Positions 33,402-55,438 of a stretch of DNA of 64,000 nt are shown one piece after another. Source of the stretch: Candidatus Gastranaerophilales bacterium (lineage in GTDB: Bacteria; Cyanobacteriota; Vampirovibrionia; Gastranaerophilales; Gastranaerophilaceae); contig CALVBT010000005.1 in assembly GCA_944325885.1 (NCBI GenBank), forward strand, positions 1 through 64,000. Direction: 5' to 3'. The position numbers and the translations under genes were made by a program. The notes under the pieces are model-generated. The model saw only the letters and a list, made by a program, of their open reading frames with translations. It was not told where the DNA came from and did no database searches. Within the stretch, counting starts at the first letter, position 1. Each line of letters starts with the position of its first letter.

Positions 33402-33830
33402 ATGATGAAAAATCATTATGAAAAATTAAAAGGCTGCAGAGCTTCAAAAAACAGGGACGAGGTGCTTTTTGTTATGGAAAATCAAAACTGCCCTCTGAGT
33501 GTGGAAGAAATTTACGGCAAAGTAAAAGCAAAAAACTCTTCTATATCGCTTTCTACTGTTTACAGAATTATAGACAAACTTTTGAACCTTGAAATAATAA
33601 GAAAAGCTGCCACGCTCGAGGACAACACCTCGCTTTATGAACTGACAAAAGACAGCCACCATCATTACATGATTTGCACAAAATGCAAAAAAATGATACC
33701 AATAGATATATGTCCGATAGAAGAATTGGAGCATAAAATATCTGATTCTACAGGGTTTAACATAACAGGACACAAATTTGAATTATACGGAGAGTGCAAA
33801 AACTGCGCACAAAAACAAGACAGGAGCTAA
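33402..33830 (+). CDS. Fur-family metal-responsive regulator (Fur/Zur/PerR)
   Basis: A 142-residue Fur-type repressor. An N-terminal winged helix (~15-80, SLSTVYRIIDKL recognition helix) is followed by the dimerisation domain with HHHYMICTKCKK (His86-88, Cys92, Cys95) and HKFELYGECKNC (His124, Cys132, Cys135). The two CxxC pairs form the structural zinc site; His and Glu residues between them form the sensing site. Peroxide, iron or zinc specificity is not clear; the following Cys-rich gene hints at zinc or another thiophilic metal. AAAAGGA precedes the ATG. Likely auto-regulated through the palindrome at 33272-33288. Confidence 0.93.
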   Translation: MMKNHYEKLKGCRASKNRDEVLFVMENQNCPLSVEEIYGKVKAKNSSISLSTVYRIIDKLLNLEIIRKAATLEDNTSLYELTKDSHHHYMICTKCKKMIPIDICPIEELEHKISDSTGFNITGHKFELYGECKNCAQKQDRS

Positions 33831-34769: not shown

Positions 34770-36311
34770 TTATTCACCCAATATATCCTGCAAATCTTTT
34801 TCCGGTGTTGTGATTGGCTTTATCTTAAATTTTTCAACAAGTATGTTCAAAACATTTGGCGAAACAAATGCCGGCAAACTGGGGCCGAGCCTGATATTTT
34901 CTATACCGAGATAAAGAAGCGTCAATAATATACAAACAGCCTTTTGTTCATACCACGAAAGAACAAGAGAAAGAGGCAGCTCATTTACGCTGCAATCAAA
35001 AACTTTGGCCAGTTCTACCGCCACTTTTATTGCGCTGTATGCATCGTTGCATTGTCCCATATCCAAGAGCCTCGGTATGCCGTTTATGTCGCCGAGGTCA
35101 AGGTCATTAAAACGATATTTTCCGCAGGCAAGAGTCAATATCAAAGTATCTTTCGGACACTGTTTGACAAATTCCGTATAATAATTTCTTCCTGTCTTTG
35201 CGCCGTCACAGCCGCCAACCAAAAAAATATGTTTTAAATCACCGGATTTTACAGCATCTATCACTTTGTCCGCAACGGACAATACAGTGCCGTGGCCAAA
35301 ACCTACAGTCAAAACATCTCCGCCGTTGATTCCCGTCATTTTTTTATCTTCTTTATATCCGCCCAGCTGCAAGGCTTTTTCTATAACCGGAGAAAAATCC
35401 TTTTCATCAGAAATATGAACCATATCAGGATATCCAACCACAGAAGTTGTAAACACCCTGTCACGATAACTGTCTTTAACAGGCATTATACAGTTTGTTG
35501 TAAAAAGTATAGGAGCCGGAATATCAGCAAATTCCTTTTGCTGGTTTTGCCACGCAGTGCCAAAATTCCCCTTTAGATGAGGATATTTTTTAAGCTCCGG
35601 ATAAGCGTGACACGGAAGCATTTCTCCGTGTGTATAGATATTTATACCTTTGTCTTTTGTTTGTTCCAAAAGTATCGCCAAATCCCTAAGGTCATGCCCC
35701 GTTACAACAATAAACGGCCCTTTTTCTATATTTGTTGTGACTTTTACAGGCACGGGGGTTCCGTAAGTTTCTGTATTGGCTCTATCCAAAAGCTCCATGC
35801 ATTTTAAGTTTATCTCTCCGGTCTTTAATACAAGTGCCAACAACTCATCTGTCCCCAAATCAGAAGCAAGCGCATTCAAAGCTTCATAAAAGAAATCATC
35901 AACAGCTTTGTCCGTATAGCCGAGAACCCTTGCGTGATGAGCATAAGCGGCTATCCCTCTAAGGCCGAAAAGAATCAAAGATTTCAAGCTTCTTATATCT
36001 TCATCTGCTGTCCAGACAGATTTTATATCAAATTTTTTATCGCAATTTTTTGCAGCGTCCACTCTGTCTATGTATCTTTGGATAGCATCATTATCAAAGT
36101 TTACGTTTGTTATGGTAACAAACAGGCCGTTTATAATAAGGTCTGTAATTTCTTCCGTTTTTTCACAGCAGCCTGCCAGCTCTATTAAAGAATCCGTCAA
36201 TTTGTCCTGCAAATTTGCCGTGTCGGCTTTTTTTCCGCAAACTCCCTGCGCCTTGGTACATCCGCTGCCGCAAGCAGTCTGTTCGCATTGAAAACAAAAC
36301 ATTTGAGTCAT
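34770..36311 (-). CDS. hcp: Hydroxylamine reductase / hybrid-cluster protein
   Basis: A 513-residue Hcp. The N-terminal Cys set Cys6, Cys9, Cys18, Cys25 (CFQC..GC..GVCG) has the spacing of the anaerobe class that carries a 4Fe-4S cluster. All hybrid-cluster ligands are present: His in TGHDL, Glu in THGEMLP, Cys in FTTNC, Cys in VGGCDGAK (persulfide Cys), Cys in ACGKYRF, Cys in MGQCNDAY, and Glu in SWYEQKA. Hcp acts in nitric-oxide and hydroxylamine stress, and in protein nitrosylation. No reductase (hcr) gene is adjacent. A second, cluster-less homologue lies at 50995-52647. Confidence 0.97.
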   Translation of the reverse strand: MTQMFCFQCEQTACGSGCTKAQGVCGKKADTANLQDKLTDSLIELAGCCEKTEEITDLIINGLFVTITNVNFDNDAIQRYIDRVDAAKNCDKKFDIKSVWTADEDIRSLKSLILFGLRGIAAYAHHARVLGYTDKAVDDFFYEALNALASDLGTDELLALVLKTGEINLKCMELLDRANTETYGTPVPVKVTTNIEKGPFIVVTGHDLRDLAILLEQTKDKGINIYTHGEMLPCHAYPELKKYPHLKGNFGTAWQNQQKEFADIPAPILFTTNCIMPVKDSYRDRVFTTSVVGYPDMVHISDEKDFSPVIEKALQLGGYKEDKKMTGINGGDVLTVGFGHGTVLSVADKVIDAVKSGDLKHIFLVGGCDGAKTGRNYYTEFVKQCPKDTLILTLACGKYRFNDLDLGDINGIPRLLDMGQCNDAYSAIKVAVELAKVFDCSVNELPLSLVLSWYEQKAVCILLTLLYLGIENIRLGPSLPAFVSPNVLNILVEKFKIKPITTPEKDLQDILGE

Positions 36312-50055: not shown

Positions 50056-50766
50056 ATGGAAAACAATAACAAACCGGTTGTAAAACTTATAGCAAAACCT
50101 CAAAACCTTTTAAAAACTATATACACAGCCTGCAGAACCTGCTACAGCGCAGATTCGCCGGTAAACATATATGACAAAGCCGATGATGAACAAAAAATGC
50201 TCAATCTTATTGAAAGAGTAATCTCCTCAGGCCACTATTCAACAATAGAACACATTCAGGTATCTTTTGCCATTTCCAATGTATCAAGAGCATGCACACA
50301 CCAGCTCGTGCGTCACAGACACATGTCCTTTTCCCAAAAATCACAACGCTATGTAAAAGAAAAAGGACAGTTTGATTACATTACTCCGCCGACTATAGAA
50401 AAAAACCCAGAATTGCTGAAAAAATACAATGATTTTATGGGCAAAGTTTCGGAATTTTATCTTGAAATGACAAAAGCAGGCATACCCGCAGAAGATGCCC
50501 GTTTTGTACTCCCCAATGCAGCAGCCAGCTCTCTTGTCGCTTCTTTGAACTTGAGAGAACTTATTCATCTGGCAAACATAAGACTCTGCACCCGTGCGCA
50601 ATACGAAATCCGCATTATGGTCAAGATGATGTGCGAGGAGCTTTTAAAAGAAGAGCCTTGGCTTTCTAAATATCTCGTGCCAAAATGTGAACGACTCGGC
50701 TACTGCGACGAGGACAAATGCTGCGGCAGAAAAATTAAAAAAGAAGAATTTTTAGCAAAATTATAA
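50056..50766 (+). CDS. thyX: Flavin-dependent thymidylate synthase
   Basis: A 236-residue ThyX, which makes dTMP with FAD/NADPH instead of the folate-oxidising ThyA route. The defining motif RHRxxSFSQKSQRY stands at residues 86-99, with EHIQVSFAI before it and ARFVLPNAAASSL, LCTRAQYEIR after it. The C-terminus carries a Cys pair (YCDEDKCCG) that is not part of the core. GGGGAG precedes the ATG. ThyX fits low-folate or anaerobic lifestyles. Confidence 0.96.
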   Translation: MENNNKPVVKLIAKPQNLLKTIYTACRTCYSADSPVNIYDKADDEQKMLNLIERVISSGHYSTIEHIQVSFAISNVSRACTHQLVRHRHMSFSQKSQRYVKEKGQFDYITPPTIEKNPELLKKYNDFMGKVSEFYLEMTKAGIPAEDARFVLPNAAASSLVASLNLRELIHLANIRLCTRAQYEIRIMVKMMCEELLKEEPWLSKYLVPKCERLGYCDEDKCCGRKIKKEEFLAKL

Positions 50767-50994: not shown

Positions 50995-52647
50995 TCAGAC
51001 ATTCTTTAAATCCTGCTTCGGGTCATCCGTTACCTGTTTAAAATCGAATTTTGATTTTAAAAATTCAATCATTCCCGGAGTTATTGTATTTGAGGTGCAT
51101 TTTGGCAGATAAATATTTTTTATCCCTAGATACCTCAAATTAAATAAGTGTGAAATCGTATGCAGATTGCACGTCGTAATAAACACGCTGACAGGAAATT
51201 TATCCAAATCAATATGCTCTTTTATGCGGGCAATGATTTTGTAAATCAAAGAAGAATTAAAGAAAGAATTAAAATAAAGTATATTTTCTTTTGAAGAAGG
51301 AATTGTCGTAGAAATTACATAATAATCAGAAGGCAGATTCTTCTCCATCTCGCTAAAATAAGCCGACTGGATAGCTGCATGATTCAAAAGTCCTACAACA
51401 ATCAGTTGTTTAATCTTCTTGTTTTTAATTTTTTCAATAATTTCATCTGCTTTCTGCATAACAGAATCCTCATCATATCCGACTTTTATCTGAGCGAGTC
51501 TGTGATTGCTGTCAAAGCCTGTTGAATTTTCAGCAGCTTCTATGAGCGGAAGAAAATTGTTGTCCTCTATCCTTGTCATCCCCTTGCCGGCAATAATATT
51601 TGTCGTAAAGAGTCTGCCCCTGTACAATCTGTCAAGAAGATATTGAAAATTCCTTATAACAAGCACAGGCCCCTTAAAAGAAGCAAAATCAAACTGTACA
51701 CTATCCAGCGACATTTGATAATGTCCTTTCAGATTTTTATATTTTGCAAATTTTGGATATGCATGAGCAACTACCAGCCCGTTATGGGTATAAACATTTA
51801 TATCGGTATCAATAGCCGCCTCGAGCAAATTTTCCAAATCTTTAAGATTTTGTCCGGAAACAAGAATGGATTTGCCTTTTTCAACACCTACTTCCACATC
51901 ATTGAGAGTGATTTTTCCGTAATATTCTTCTTTAAACTGATGAAGTTTTTGATGAATTTGGTAATTAATACGAGAAAAATCATTTATTTTTTTTATGAGT
52001 TTTGTTTCTGTCATTGCAGAAAAATTGAGATTGTTAAAAAGCCTCAAAATCCCGTCTTCTTCCGGAACATAGTCCTCTGTATAGGCTTTTAGCTCTGTTA
52101 GCCTTATACTCGCACTTTTTATCAGGTTCAATATAATTTCATAAAGATTTTTTATATCAGGATTCATTATCTTGTTGCGTTGAATAGCCTGCTGTTCACC
52201 CTGATTTACAATAGAAGAAAGGTCAAATTTTTCAAACTTTATATTTGATTTCAAAATCTGACAATCTATATTCTTTTTGTCGCAAAAATTTATATAGGCC
52301 TCTTTTACCTCTTCCTTTGCTTTATGAATTTCTTTTAAAATACGCTCAAACTCATCACGGTTGAACTCATAACCAATCAAAAACAATGACAGATAATTTA
52401 TTATCTGGTTTTTAAACTTTTTGTTTTCATAGCCGAGTTCCTGCATTTTTATGTAATAGTAGGTAATTTGCTTTAACTCATAAAGCAAAACCTCCATCAA
52501 AGAATAAACTATCGGGTCTATACTGCAATAGCCGTCAATGGCGCAGTCATTATAGCCCAGTTTTTCGCCGTAATTTCTGTCAAAATCCTGTGCAGCTGCA
52601 CTTCTTTTATCCTGTCCTGAATTTTCGTTTGCAAATTGATTAAACAT
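50995..52647 (-). CDS. Hcp-fold paralogue without cluster ligands
   Basis: A 550-residue protein whose C-terminal two thirds align with Hcp (34770-36311): SGQNLKDLENLLEAA matches TGHDLRDLAILLEQ; INVYTHNGLVVAHAYPKF matches INIYTHGEMLPCHAYPEL; LRYLGIKNIYLPK matches LLYLGIENIRLGP. Ligand positions are changed: His to Gln (SGQNL), Glu to a non-ligand (THNGL), FTTNC Cys to RNF, the persulfide VGGCDGAK Cys to VGLLNHAA, ACGK Cys lost, and WYEQ Glu lost; the N-terminal four-Cys cluster is missing and replaced by a helical region. It cannot hold a hybrid cluster as known. Role unknown: scaffold, sensor or partner of Hcp are options. Confidence 0.82.
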   Translation of the reverse strand: MFNQFANENSGQDKRSAAAQDFDRNYGEKLGYNDCAIDGYCSIDPIVYSLMEVLLYELKQITYYYIKMQELGYENKKFKNQIINYLSLFLIGYEFNRDEFERILKEIHKAKEEVKEAYINFCDKKNIDCQILKSNIKFEKFDLSSIVNQGEQQAIQRNKIMNPDIKNLYEIILNLIKSASIRLTELKAYTEDYVPEEDGILRLFNNLNFSAMTETKLIKKINDFSRINYQIHQKLHQFKEEYYGKITLNDVEVGVEKGKSILVSGQNLKDLENLLEAAIDTDINVYTHNGLVVAHAYPKFAKYKNLKGHYQMSLDSVQFDFASFKGPVLVIRNFQYLLDRLYRGRLFTTNIIAGKGMTRIEDNNFLPLIEAAENSTGFDSNHRLAQIKVGYDEDSVMQKADEIIEKIKNKKIKQLIVVGLLNHAAIQSAYFSEMEKNLPSDYYVISTTIPSSKENILYFNSFFNSSLIYKIIARIKEHIDLDKFPVSVFITTCNLHTISHLFNLRYLGIKNIYLPKCTSNTITPGMIEFLKSKFDFKQVTDDPKQDLKNV

Positions 52648-52756
52648 AAACGTATTTTAAAAAACAATATTGCAAAAACCATTAGCTAAAAGGCCAATTC
52701 GATTATGCCCGATTTTGCCAATCATTTGGATTATGACTGCATTTTAAAATCTATAG

Positions 52757-52773
52757 TATAATTTGATATCAAA
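52757..52773 (+). promoter_or_regulatory. -10 box with overlapping palindrome upstream of the M16 gene
   Basis: TATAAT (52757-52762) is directly followed by the perfect 12-bp palindrome TTTGATATCAAA (52762-52773), an obvious place for an operator at the start site. A clear -35 is not seen. Confidence 0.45.
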
Positions 52774-52804
52774 TATACAAAATTATTGAAGGGGGCAGGT
52801 TTTT

Positions 52805-55438
52805 ATGAAAAACATTAAAAAACTATTTATTCTGGTTTTATTTGCATTTTTCTGCATAACCCAGAATGTTTTTGCGATGGATTATTCCGTCTACAAACTC
52901 GATAACGGCCAAACAGTCATTATAAAAGAAGTCCACGACAACCCGATAGTAACAATTGACACGTGGATAAAAACAGGCTCTATAAACGAAAATGACAAAA
53001 ATAACGGTGTGGCTCACTTTCTGGAGCATCTGTTCTTTAAAGGGACAACAAAACATCCGACAGGTGAATTCGACAGAATACTGGAATCTAAAGGCGCACA
53101 AACAAATGCTGCAACGAGCAAAGATTTTACACACTATTACATAACCCTGCCTTCAAAATATTTTGAAACAGCAATCGACCTGCACGCAGACATGCTGATG
53201 AATCCGCTCATCCCCCGCAAAGAACTGGAAAAAGAACGCAAAGTAGTAATAGAAGAAATAGCAAAAACAAATGACAATCCTGAAAACAAACTGTATGAAA
53301 ATATGGTGCAGTCATTTTATATAAACCATCCTTACAAAAGAAAAGTAATAGGCAAAAAAGAGATTATAGAGAACATTTCCAGAGAAGAAATCTTCAATTT
53401 TTACAACAGCTGGTACAATCCGTCTAATATGATTACAGTTGTTGTCGGTGATATTGACACGACTCAGGCTCTGGATTTGATAAAAAAGAACTTTAACAGA
53501 CCCGAAGCCAAAAACTGCAAAAATCCAAAATACAAATCAGATAAAAATATCGAAAAACAAATCGAAATTACTGCAAAAGACAAAGTCAAAAACGGCTATA
53601 TGCTGATAGGCTTTAGAGGAGTTCCGCAGGAAAACAGAGCAGACAGCTACGCTCTTGATGTTCTTGCCACCATCCTTGGCGACGGCCGCGCCTCAAAACT
53701 CTATCAGGCAGTTAAAGAGCAAAAACAGCTTGCTTACAGCATTTCTGCAGGACATGCTTCTATGAAAGATGACAGCCTTGTGTTTGTAAGAGCAAACTTT
53801 ACACCGGAAAACAAGGACAAAGTAAAAAAAGCTATTTTTGACGAAATTACAAAAGTAAGAAACGGCAATATAGACGAGCAGGAAATTTCTACCGCAAAAA
53901 ATATTATAGAGAGAGATACCTTCTACGCAAGAGAATCTACCTCAAACATTGCCAACGAACTCGGATACACCACTCTTGTTTACGGTGATGCAAAATATTA
54001 TGACGAATACATAGACAACATCAAAAAGGTTACAAAAGCCGATTTAATAAGGGTTGCAAAAAAATATCTGAACCCGAATCACGCAGTAATCTCCATAATG
54101 CTTCCGGACACGGCTTCTGAAGAAAACATTAAAAAGATAAGCAATGTTGCACACCCAAAACCCGTTGTTGTCAAAAAAGAAAAAAATATTACCCAGTACA
54201 AACTATCAAACAATCTGAACCTTATTATAAATCACAACACGCTCAATGATATTGTTGCTATGGAAATTTATGCCAAAGGCGGAAATTTTATTGAGAAAAA
54301 AGCAGGCACAGGCACAATAACAGCGTCAGTTATGATGAAAGGGACAAAAAAATATTCCCAGATAGATTTGTCACAGACAATGGAACAAAACGGAATAAAA
54401 ATAGTTCCGGCTAACGGCTCGGATTACTTTTCAATATCCGTAAAAACAACAAAAAACGATTTGCCGCTGACATTTGACCTCTTAAACGAAGTGGTAAACA
54501 ATGCAACACTGGACAAAAACGAAATTGAAAGAATAAAAACAGAAAAAATCTACGCTATTCAACAAAACAGAGATACGCCTTCGAGTGTTGCTTTTGAAGA
54601 ATTCAAAACAGCAATCTGGGCAAACACTCCTTACGGTGTCACCGGGAAAGTAATGGAAAAAACTATCCCGACAATAAACAAAAATGATGTAGAAGAATTT
54701 TACAACACTGTTTTTTATCCGGAAAATCTTGTTATCTCAATTAATGGAAACGTTAATGACGAAGAAATCATAAAAAACATTGAACAAATCTTCTGCTCAA
54801 AAAAATATACAAATGCGAAAAAATTTGAATATTCAAACTACAAGAACAAATTCTTACCGCTTTCAGCCACCAAAAACGTAAAAAAAGAAAAAGACGTAGA
54901 AGCTGCATGGATACTAATGGGCTGGCTCACAGACGGAGTGCAGAACAAAAAAGACATTGCAGCTCTGCAGGTTATTGATTCTATACTAGGCGGCGGTATG
55001 AGTTCCAGACTGTTCTCAAATCTCAGAGGAGAACAGGGGCTGGCATATCAGGTAGGTTCCAGCTTTGCAGCGAACGTAAATCAGGGTGTTTTTGCGGTTT
55101 ACATCGGCACAAACCCGGAAACAGCACTGCACTCAAAAAATGAACTGCTAAAACAAATTAACCTGCTTAAAAAAGAATTTGTTTCGGACAAAGAGCTGCA
55201 AGAAGCAAAGGACAAAATTCTCGGCAACTTTGTTCTTTCTCAGGAAACAAACATGGAAAAAGCCTACACTCTGGGCTGGTTTGAACTCTCCGGCAGAGGG
55301 TTTGACTATATAAATGAATTTCCTAAACTGATAGAATGCGTAACCCCGACCGAAGTAATAAGAGTCGCAAACAAATATTTTGAAAAACCTTACGTATTCA
55401 CGATAGTTGCACCGAAAAAATATCTGAAACAATTCTAA
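52805..55438 (+). CDS. Exported M16-family zinc peptidase (two-domain)
   Basis: An 877-residue peptidase with signal peptide (cut near residue 24). The first M16 domain has the inverted zinc motif HFLEH (71-75) and the downstream Glu in KERKVVIEEIA (~151). The second half (~450-877) has the same fold but no HxxEH, as is usual for the paired inactive domain, with the RGEQGLAYQVGSSF signature. M16 enzymes degrade peptides and small proteins in a closed chamber; this one would act in the periplasm. Typical of PqqL/YmxG-like proteins fused in one chain. GGGGG precedes the ATG. Confidence 0.93.
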   Translation: MKNIKKLFILVLFAFFCITQNVFAMDYSVYKLDNGQTVIIKEVHDNPIVTIDTWIKTGSINENDKNNGVAHFLEHLFFKGTTKHPTGEFDRILESKGAQTNAATSKDFTHYYITLPSKYFETAIDLHADMLMNPLIPRKELEKERKVVIEEIAKTNDNPENKLYENMVQSFYINHPYKRKVIGKKEIIENISREEIFNFYNSWYNPSNMITVVVGDIDTTQALDLIKKNFNRPEAKNCKNPKYKSDKNIEKQIEITAKDKVKNGYMLIGFRGVPQENRADSYALDVLATILGDGRASKLYQAVKEQKQLAYSISAGHASMKDDSLVFVRANFTPENKDKVKKAIFDEITKVRNGNIDEQEISTAKNIIERDTFYARESTSNIANELGYTTLVYGDAKYYDEYIDNIKKVTKADLIRVAKKYLNPNHAVISIMLPDTASEENIKKISNVAHPKPVVVKKEKNITQYKLSNNLNLIINHNTLNDIVAMEIYAKGGNFIEKKAGTGTITASVMMKGTKKYSQIDLSQTMEQNGIKIVPANGSDYFSISVKTTKNDLPLTFDLLNEVVNNATLDKNEIERIKTEKIYAIQQNRDTPSSVAFEEFKTAIWANTPYGVTGKVMEKTIPTINKNDVEEFYNTVFYPENLVISINGNVNDEEIIKNIEQIFCSKKYTNAKKFEYSNYKNKFLPLSATKNVKKEKDVEAAWILMGWLTDGVQNKKDIAALQVIDSILGGGMSSRLFSNLRGEQGLAYQVGSSFAANVNQGVFAVYIGTNPETALHSKNELLKQINLLKKEFVSDKELQEAKDKILGNFVLSQETNMEKAYTLGWFELSGRGFDYINEFPKLIECVTPTEVIRVANKYFEKPYVFTIVAPKKYLKQF

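Follow-up and report, generated by a model that had tools for sequence, protein, structure and literature searches.

In the Gastranaerophilales, gut-dwelling relatives of the cyanobacteria, we describe a homologue of the hybrid cluster protein (Hcp) that has lost every ligand of the hybrid cluster and that selection maintains more consistently than it maintains Hcp itself. The gene lies in the 64,000-nucleotide stretch of DNA analysed here (the window; Table 1), where it is a single unbroken ORF of 550 codons with exact bounds. Judged by the defining ligands, its family stands outside functional Hcp and forms a new subfamily, without ligands, within the prismane fold. Hcp is regarded as strictly metal-dependent, and this near-core, selected family has no hybrid-cluster ligand. 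Two pairs of conserved cysteines, and a glutaredoxin gene next to the Hcp-like gene in many genomes, suggest that the fold may now serve thiol chemistry.

The window gene is solitary, placed between a convergent thyX-like gene that ends at 50766 and a divergent M16 peptidase gene that starts at 52805. The upstream region (52648-52804) contains a block conserved throughout the genus ahead of the start codon, composed of GGTTAATGGTTT, a spacer and TTTAAAATGC, which perhaps exceeds the length needed for a plain promoter. When this conserved string was sought as a shared regulatory motif, it had no further matches within the window at three or fewer mismatches. The true Hcp gene of the window has, at a distance of about 1 kb, a gene that reads by sequence as a Fur/PerR-type regulator (33402-33830, + strand), and the two possibly form a redox-stress cluster.

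Table 1. Positions of the Hcp-like gene, its conserved cysteine codons and comparison genes. Positions refer to the window, or to the named locus where one is given.
Feature	Position	Strand	Evidence or remarks
Ligand-less Hcp-like gene	50995..52647	-	550 aa; ORF, Prismane match, ligand table, AlphaFold2 model
Cys35, aligned with DvHcp [4Fe-4S] ligand Cys15	52543..52545	-	C in 111/120
Cys41, aligned with DvHcp [4Fe-4S] ligand Cys21	52525..52527	-	C in 111/120
Cys122, family-specific	52282..52284	-	C in 108/120
Cys493, in place of the Tyr adjoining Hcp ligand Glu494	51169..51171	-	C in 116/120
Cys517, in place of Ser/Thr of the Hcp GP(S/T)LPAF loop	51097..51099	-	C in 115/120
Intergenic region, putative promoters of the Hcp-like gene and the divergent M16 peptidase gene	52648..52804	.	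upstream-region alignment; blocks genus-conserved
True Hcp, comparison gene	34770..36311	-	full ligand set present
Degenerate Hcp paralogue L061	803-2446	-	keeps four N-terminal Cys, Glu268, Cys312, Cys406
Degenerate Hcp paralogue L070	5048-6703	-	keeps Cys15, Cys21, Glu268, Cys312
Degenerate Hcp paralogue L074	5024-6679	-	keeps Cys15, Cys21, Glu268, Cys312
Degenerate Hcp paralogue L077	4948-6609	+	keeps only Cys406, Cys434
Degenerate Hcp paralogue L085	4954-6633	-	keeps only Cys406, Cys434

The homology to Hcp is far above chance, because the window paralogue matches the Pfam Prismane family (PF03063) at 1.8e-34 and 119.7 bits, above the gathering cut-off of 27 bits, aligns over most of its length with the intact Hcp of the window (BLASTP 2e-47, 25% identity), and has 8cnr as its top phmmer match in the PDB (2.9e-38). 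Against TIGR01703 (hybrid_clust), which has a curated cut-off of 360.8 bits, it scores 234.8 bits and so falls below; the true Hcp of the window scores 710.6. An AlphaFold2 model made from 74 sequences (mean pLDDT 87, pTM 0.85) has solved Hcps as its closest structural relatives, with Foldseek TM scores of 0.75-0.78 (1e1d, TM 0.78; 8cnr, E 5.2e-30) and, in VIA-align, a Z score of 30.7 and an rmsd of 3.8 over 494 residues at 22% identity. CODH structures align to the model with Z of about 15. A sequence-only reading of this DNA had described an Hcp-fold paralogue that is colinear with Hcp through the C-terminal domain; the homology is real, and it is not confined to the C-terminal part, since the whole fold is matched. 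The model thus presents the protein as a full-length Hcp homologue with a retained fold.

The ligand positions tell a different story from the fold. With D. vulgaris Hcp (DvHcp) numbering given first and that of the window paralogue second, His244 is replaced by Q266, Glu268 by G290, Cys312 by F334 and Glu494 by N494, and Cys406, Cys434 and Cys459 correspond to residues other than Cys, so none of the seven hybrid-cluster ligands (one His, two Glu, four Cys) is retained; the active-site Lys496 has become H496. The alignment is loose around Cys434 and Cys459, but no Cys can occupy these two sites because the protein has just six, at 35, 41, 122, 129, 493 and 517. The ligands are lost in all 60 paralogues of the first set, where every true Hcp has the full set, and the set is also complete in 14 of 15 Hcps from cyanobacterial families outside the order, the fifteenth being left unjudged for an ambiguous residue and a gap in the ligand stretch. 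The sequence-only reading was therefore right that His, Glu and nearly all Cys ligands are replaced. Its companion statement that the N-terminal four-Cys cluster is gone is only half right: the equivalents of Cys3 and Cys6 are absent and the motif is incomplete, but C35 and C41 correspond to ligands three and four of the [4Fe-4S] motif, DvHcp Cys15 and Cys21. Its term "cluster-free" needs a similar qualification: C35 and C41 are inherited ligands and C493 and C517 lie beside the old hybrid-cluster site, so that the sign it named as refuting, other Cys at the cluster site, is partly present and the protein might hold some other metal centre.

The paralogue is nearly universal in its family. A search of close relatives found it in 57 of 60 family genomes (G000-G059), 23 of the 60 having intact Hcp. 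Among the 226 Gastranaerophilales family genomes that are at least 90% complete, 218 match the family profile and about 217 carry the paralogue; one of the 218, G240, has a weak match only, maybe to a true Hcp. A genus-level scan returned Gastranaerophilales records, save two labelled "uncultured bacterium" and one labelled "uncultured Clostridia", and elsewhere in the phylum profile scores were at most 295 bits among the matches listed, those inspected being ordinary Hcps. In 16 pairs of close paralogues dN/dS ranged from 0.03 to 0.14 (median 0.057). We conclude from this distribution and from dN/dS that the gene is kept by selection, as its earlier description as a conserved paralogue implied.

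These observations bear directly on two simpler accounts of the gene. The loss of every active-site residue is what a decaying Hcp pseudogene would display, but full-length ORFs in nearly all family genomes, the low dN/dS and the gain and retention of specific cysteines are so contrary to decay that we reject this account and give it practically no credence. The sequence-only reading had favoured a structural partner or sensor that binds full-length Hcp, and a partner, chaperone or sensor of this sort would fit two proteins whose folds are identical in kind and whose genes both occur in the window genome. However, intact Hcp is absent from 35 of the 57 paralogue-bearing genomes and the two genes show no linkage; the proposal fails on co-occurrence, and we regard it as highly improbable. 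In two family genomes with an intact paralogue, the true Hcp is seemingly fragmented (G014:C4:142716-143137 and G046:C26:14044-14897).

Over 120 non-identical family members, five of the six cysteines (35, 41, 122, 493 and 517) are conserved in 90-97%. In the alignment C493 and C517 are absent from Hcp. The members of each pair come and go together, with joint presence or absence in 119 of 120 members for C493/C517 and in 116 of 120 for C35/C41. Corrected mutual information, calculated with about 60 effective sequences, ranked C35-C41 23rd and C493-C517 187th of 137,026 column pairs, and the residues of each pair were one another's best partners. The same scan found no coupling between the two pairs and no clear covarying Cys partner for Cys122. 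Lineages without C35/C41 mostly retain C493/C517, and the reverse holds in two lineages; because each pair has been lost somewhere while the gene persists, neither is essential everywhere. In the model, C493 and C517 follow the successive strands 486-489 and 511-514, and would therefore sit on neighbouring loops, as in a Rossmann-type sheet. The model says little on C35 because residues 31-40 have a pLDDT of about 55. Ligand-less Hcp-like genes with differing Cys patterns also occur in tandem, three at L032:4611-9482 (+) and two at L031:417-3685 (+).

By neighbour clustering and a profile search, 56 of 120 loci have a glutaredoxin-like gene directly upstream of, and codirectional with, the Hcp-like gene, at a median stop-to-start gap of 6.5 nt. 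All 56 glutaredoxin-like ORFs found in the loci hold this position; the profile search found no adjacent glutaredoxin in the other 64, which include the window's own genus. The linked proteins are of two types, 49 GST_N/Grx2-like (PF13417) and seven Grx3-like (PF00462), and since these fall in two separate clades of the tree the linkage probably arose twice. Most GST_N-type linkages represent one inherited event, because 33 of the 49 share a common neighbourhood. First-clade loci in which both outer flanks differ, about seven in number, nonetheless keep the pair, and in the second, Grx3-type clade it is retained across two kinds of neighbourhood. Of the 56 linked glutaredoxins, seven have the monothiol CPYS form. 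In several first-clade genomes (e.g. G023, G027, G035) the linked glutaredoxin is the sole PF00462 match. The window genome has two unlinked glutaredoxins, whose neighbours are flagellar export genes in one case and a FixC-like gene in the other, and a search of it for a GST_N_3 glutaredoxin found none; glutathione synthetase (PF02955) is present there and in every searched genome of the genus. In part of the second clade a TPR-repeat gene precedes the glutaredoxin and Hcp-like genes on the same strand (L026:348-1121, L028:3501-4277, L154:2950-3729).

We propose that an ancient Hcp duplicate in the Gastranaerophilales kept its fold while losing the hybrid-cluster set and two of the four [4Fe-4S] ligands, and that it may have become a thiol-based protein whose two Cys pairs occupy or adjoin the two former metal sites. 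C35/C41 would be a remnant of the [4Fe-4S] motif, and C493/C517 would lie close to the old hybrid-cluster site on their neighbouring loops. Each pair could alternate between a dithiol form and a disulfide (or a glutathione-, nitroso- or persulfide-bound form), with glutaredoxin or glutathione substituting for ferredoxin or Hcr as the source of electrons. We infer that the protein is without metal, that its pairs are redox-active and that glutaredoxin is the reductase. NO and hydroxylamine are substrates of Hcp, which is also tied to protein S-nitrosylation, as presented in PMC10502027 and references there, and for this reason our guess, which is only a guess, is that the substrate or role may belong to nitrosative or disulfide stress.

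How probable this is depends on how much is claimed. That the Hcp fold without its hybrid cluster now carries out thiol/disulfide or glutathione chemistry with glutaredoxin seems to us evenly balanced between true and false. Ligand loss, conservation, purifying selection, the covarying pairs and a glutaredoxin operon in two clades speak for it; the 64 loci and the window's genus without an adjacent glutaredoxin, the loss of each pair in some lineages, the seven CPYS monothiol forms, the single inheritance behind 33 of the 49 GST_N linkages and the low pLDDT at residues 31-40 count against it. The fuller version, in which both Fe-S sites were swapped for dithiol/disulfide pairs and glutaredoxin became the new donor to a metal-free protein that keeps the two-centre layout, is more doubtful and is put forward tentatively. 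If this is true, an Fe-S redox enzyme has turned into a thiol enzyme free of metal. Glutaredoxins can carry [2Fe-2S] clusters, and the same cysteines might instead belong to a rewired metalloprotein, where some of Cys35, 41, 122, 493 and 517, perhaps with a glutathione ligand, would hold another Fe-S cluster or metal and glutaredoxin would deliver the cluster or the glutathione. The inherited origin of C35 and C41, the conservation of all five residues and the position of C493 next to an old ligand agree with this, but no single place with three or four ligands is apparent and the hybrid-cluster set is absent. Independent loss of the two pairs and the lack of covariation between them speak in particular against a single four-Cys cluster made from C35, C41, C493 and C517. 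We consider a rewired metal site, the main rival, rather unlikely. A non-catalytic scaffold or pseudoenzyme, in which the Hcp fold would serve for binding or regulation and the Cys pairs would be purely stabilising, would account for low dN/dS in a protein whose ancestral active site is entirely gone, and for single lineages that tolerate losing either pair. Stabilising disulfides would be unusual in a protein with no visible export signal, however, and glutaredoxin operons, present in two separate clades, are a sign of thiol chemistry, so we judge this account unlikely as well. For thiol chemistry, the glutaredoxin linkage supplies a direct, testable partner.

Compared with known systems, the window paralogue shares with class I/II Hcp (TIGR01703, PF03063) the full-length fold and two of the four N-terminal cysteines. 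Unlike class I/II Hcp, it is without the hybrid-cluster ligands, Cys3/Cys6 and the active-site Lys, and its family has the new Cys pair 493/517 and, in many genera, a linked glutaredoxin. Class III Hcp, which according to PMC10502027 does without the outer helices found in class I/II, and Ni-CODH belong to the same superfamily and have a related fold, but are structurally more distant. Variation of cluster ligands has been described among Ni-CODHs as variants of the C-cluster motif and not as loss of a whole set (PMC6344411). A parallel in chemistry is E. coli Hcp, an S-nitrosylase (Seth et al. 2018, as cited in PMC10502027), which likewise ties the Hcp fold to thiols; that enzyme has a hybrid cluster, the window paralogue lacks the ligands for one, and a comparable activity here would be speculation by analogy. 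In the open-access papers searched, on ligand-less Hcp, on Hcp with glutaredoxin and on Hcp in the Gastranaerophilales or Melainabacteria, such a protein is not described, which is weak evidence that the family is novel.

In a tree rooted on cyanobacterial Hcps, the window's family and degenerate Hcp paralogues from two further families of its order form one group (SH-aLRT 100), although with long branches and a quick search this grouping could reflect long-branch attraction. The sister paralogues (L061, L070, L074, L077 and L085; Table 1) resemble the window's family in their place on the same branch and in having partly lost their ligands, and differ from it in that none has the Cys493/Cys517 pair. 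The pattern fits one duplication followed by stepwise ligand loss, and these relatives together with the ligand-less family provide a natural series on how an Fe-S enzyme may survive the loss of its cluster. They also illustrate how an automatic label of "hydroxylamine reductase" can mislead: L061 passes the NCBIfam TIGR01703 (hydroxylamine reductase) cut-off, with 374.4 against 360.8 bits, despite missing several ligands.
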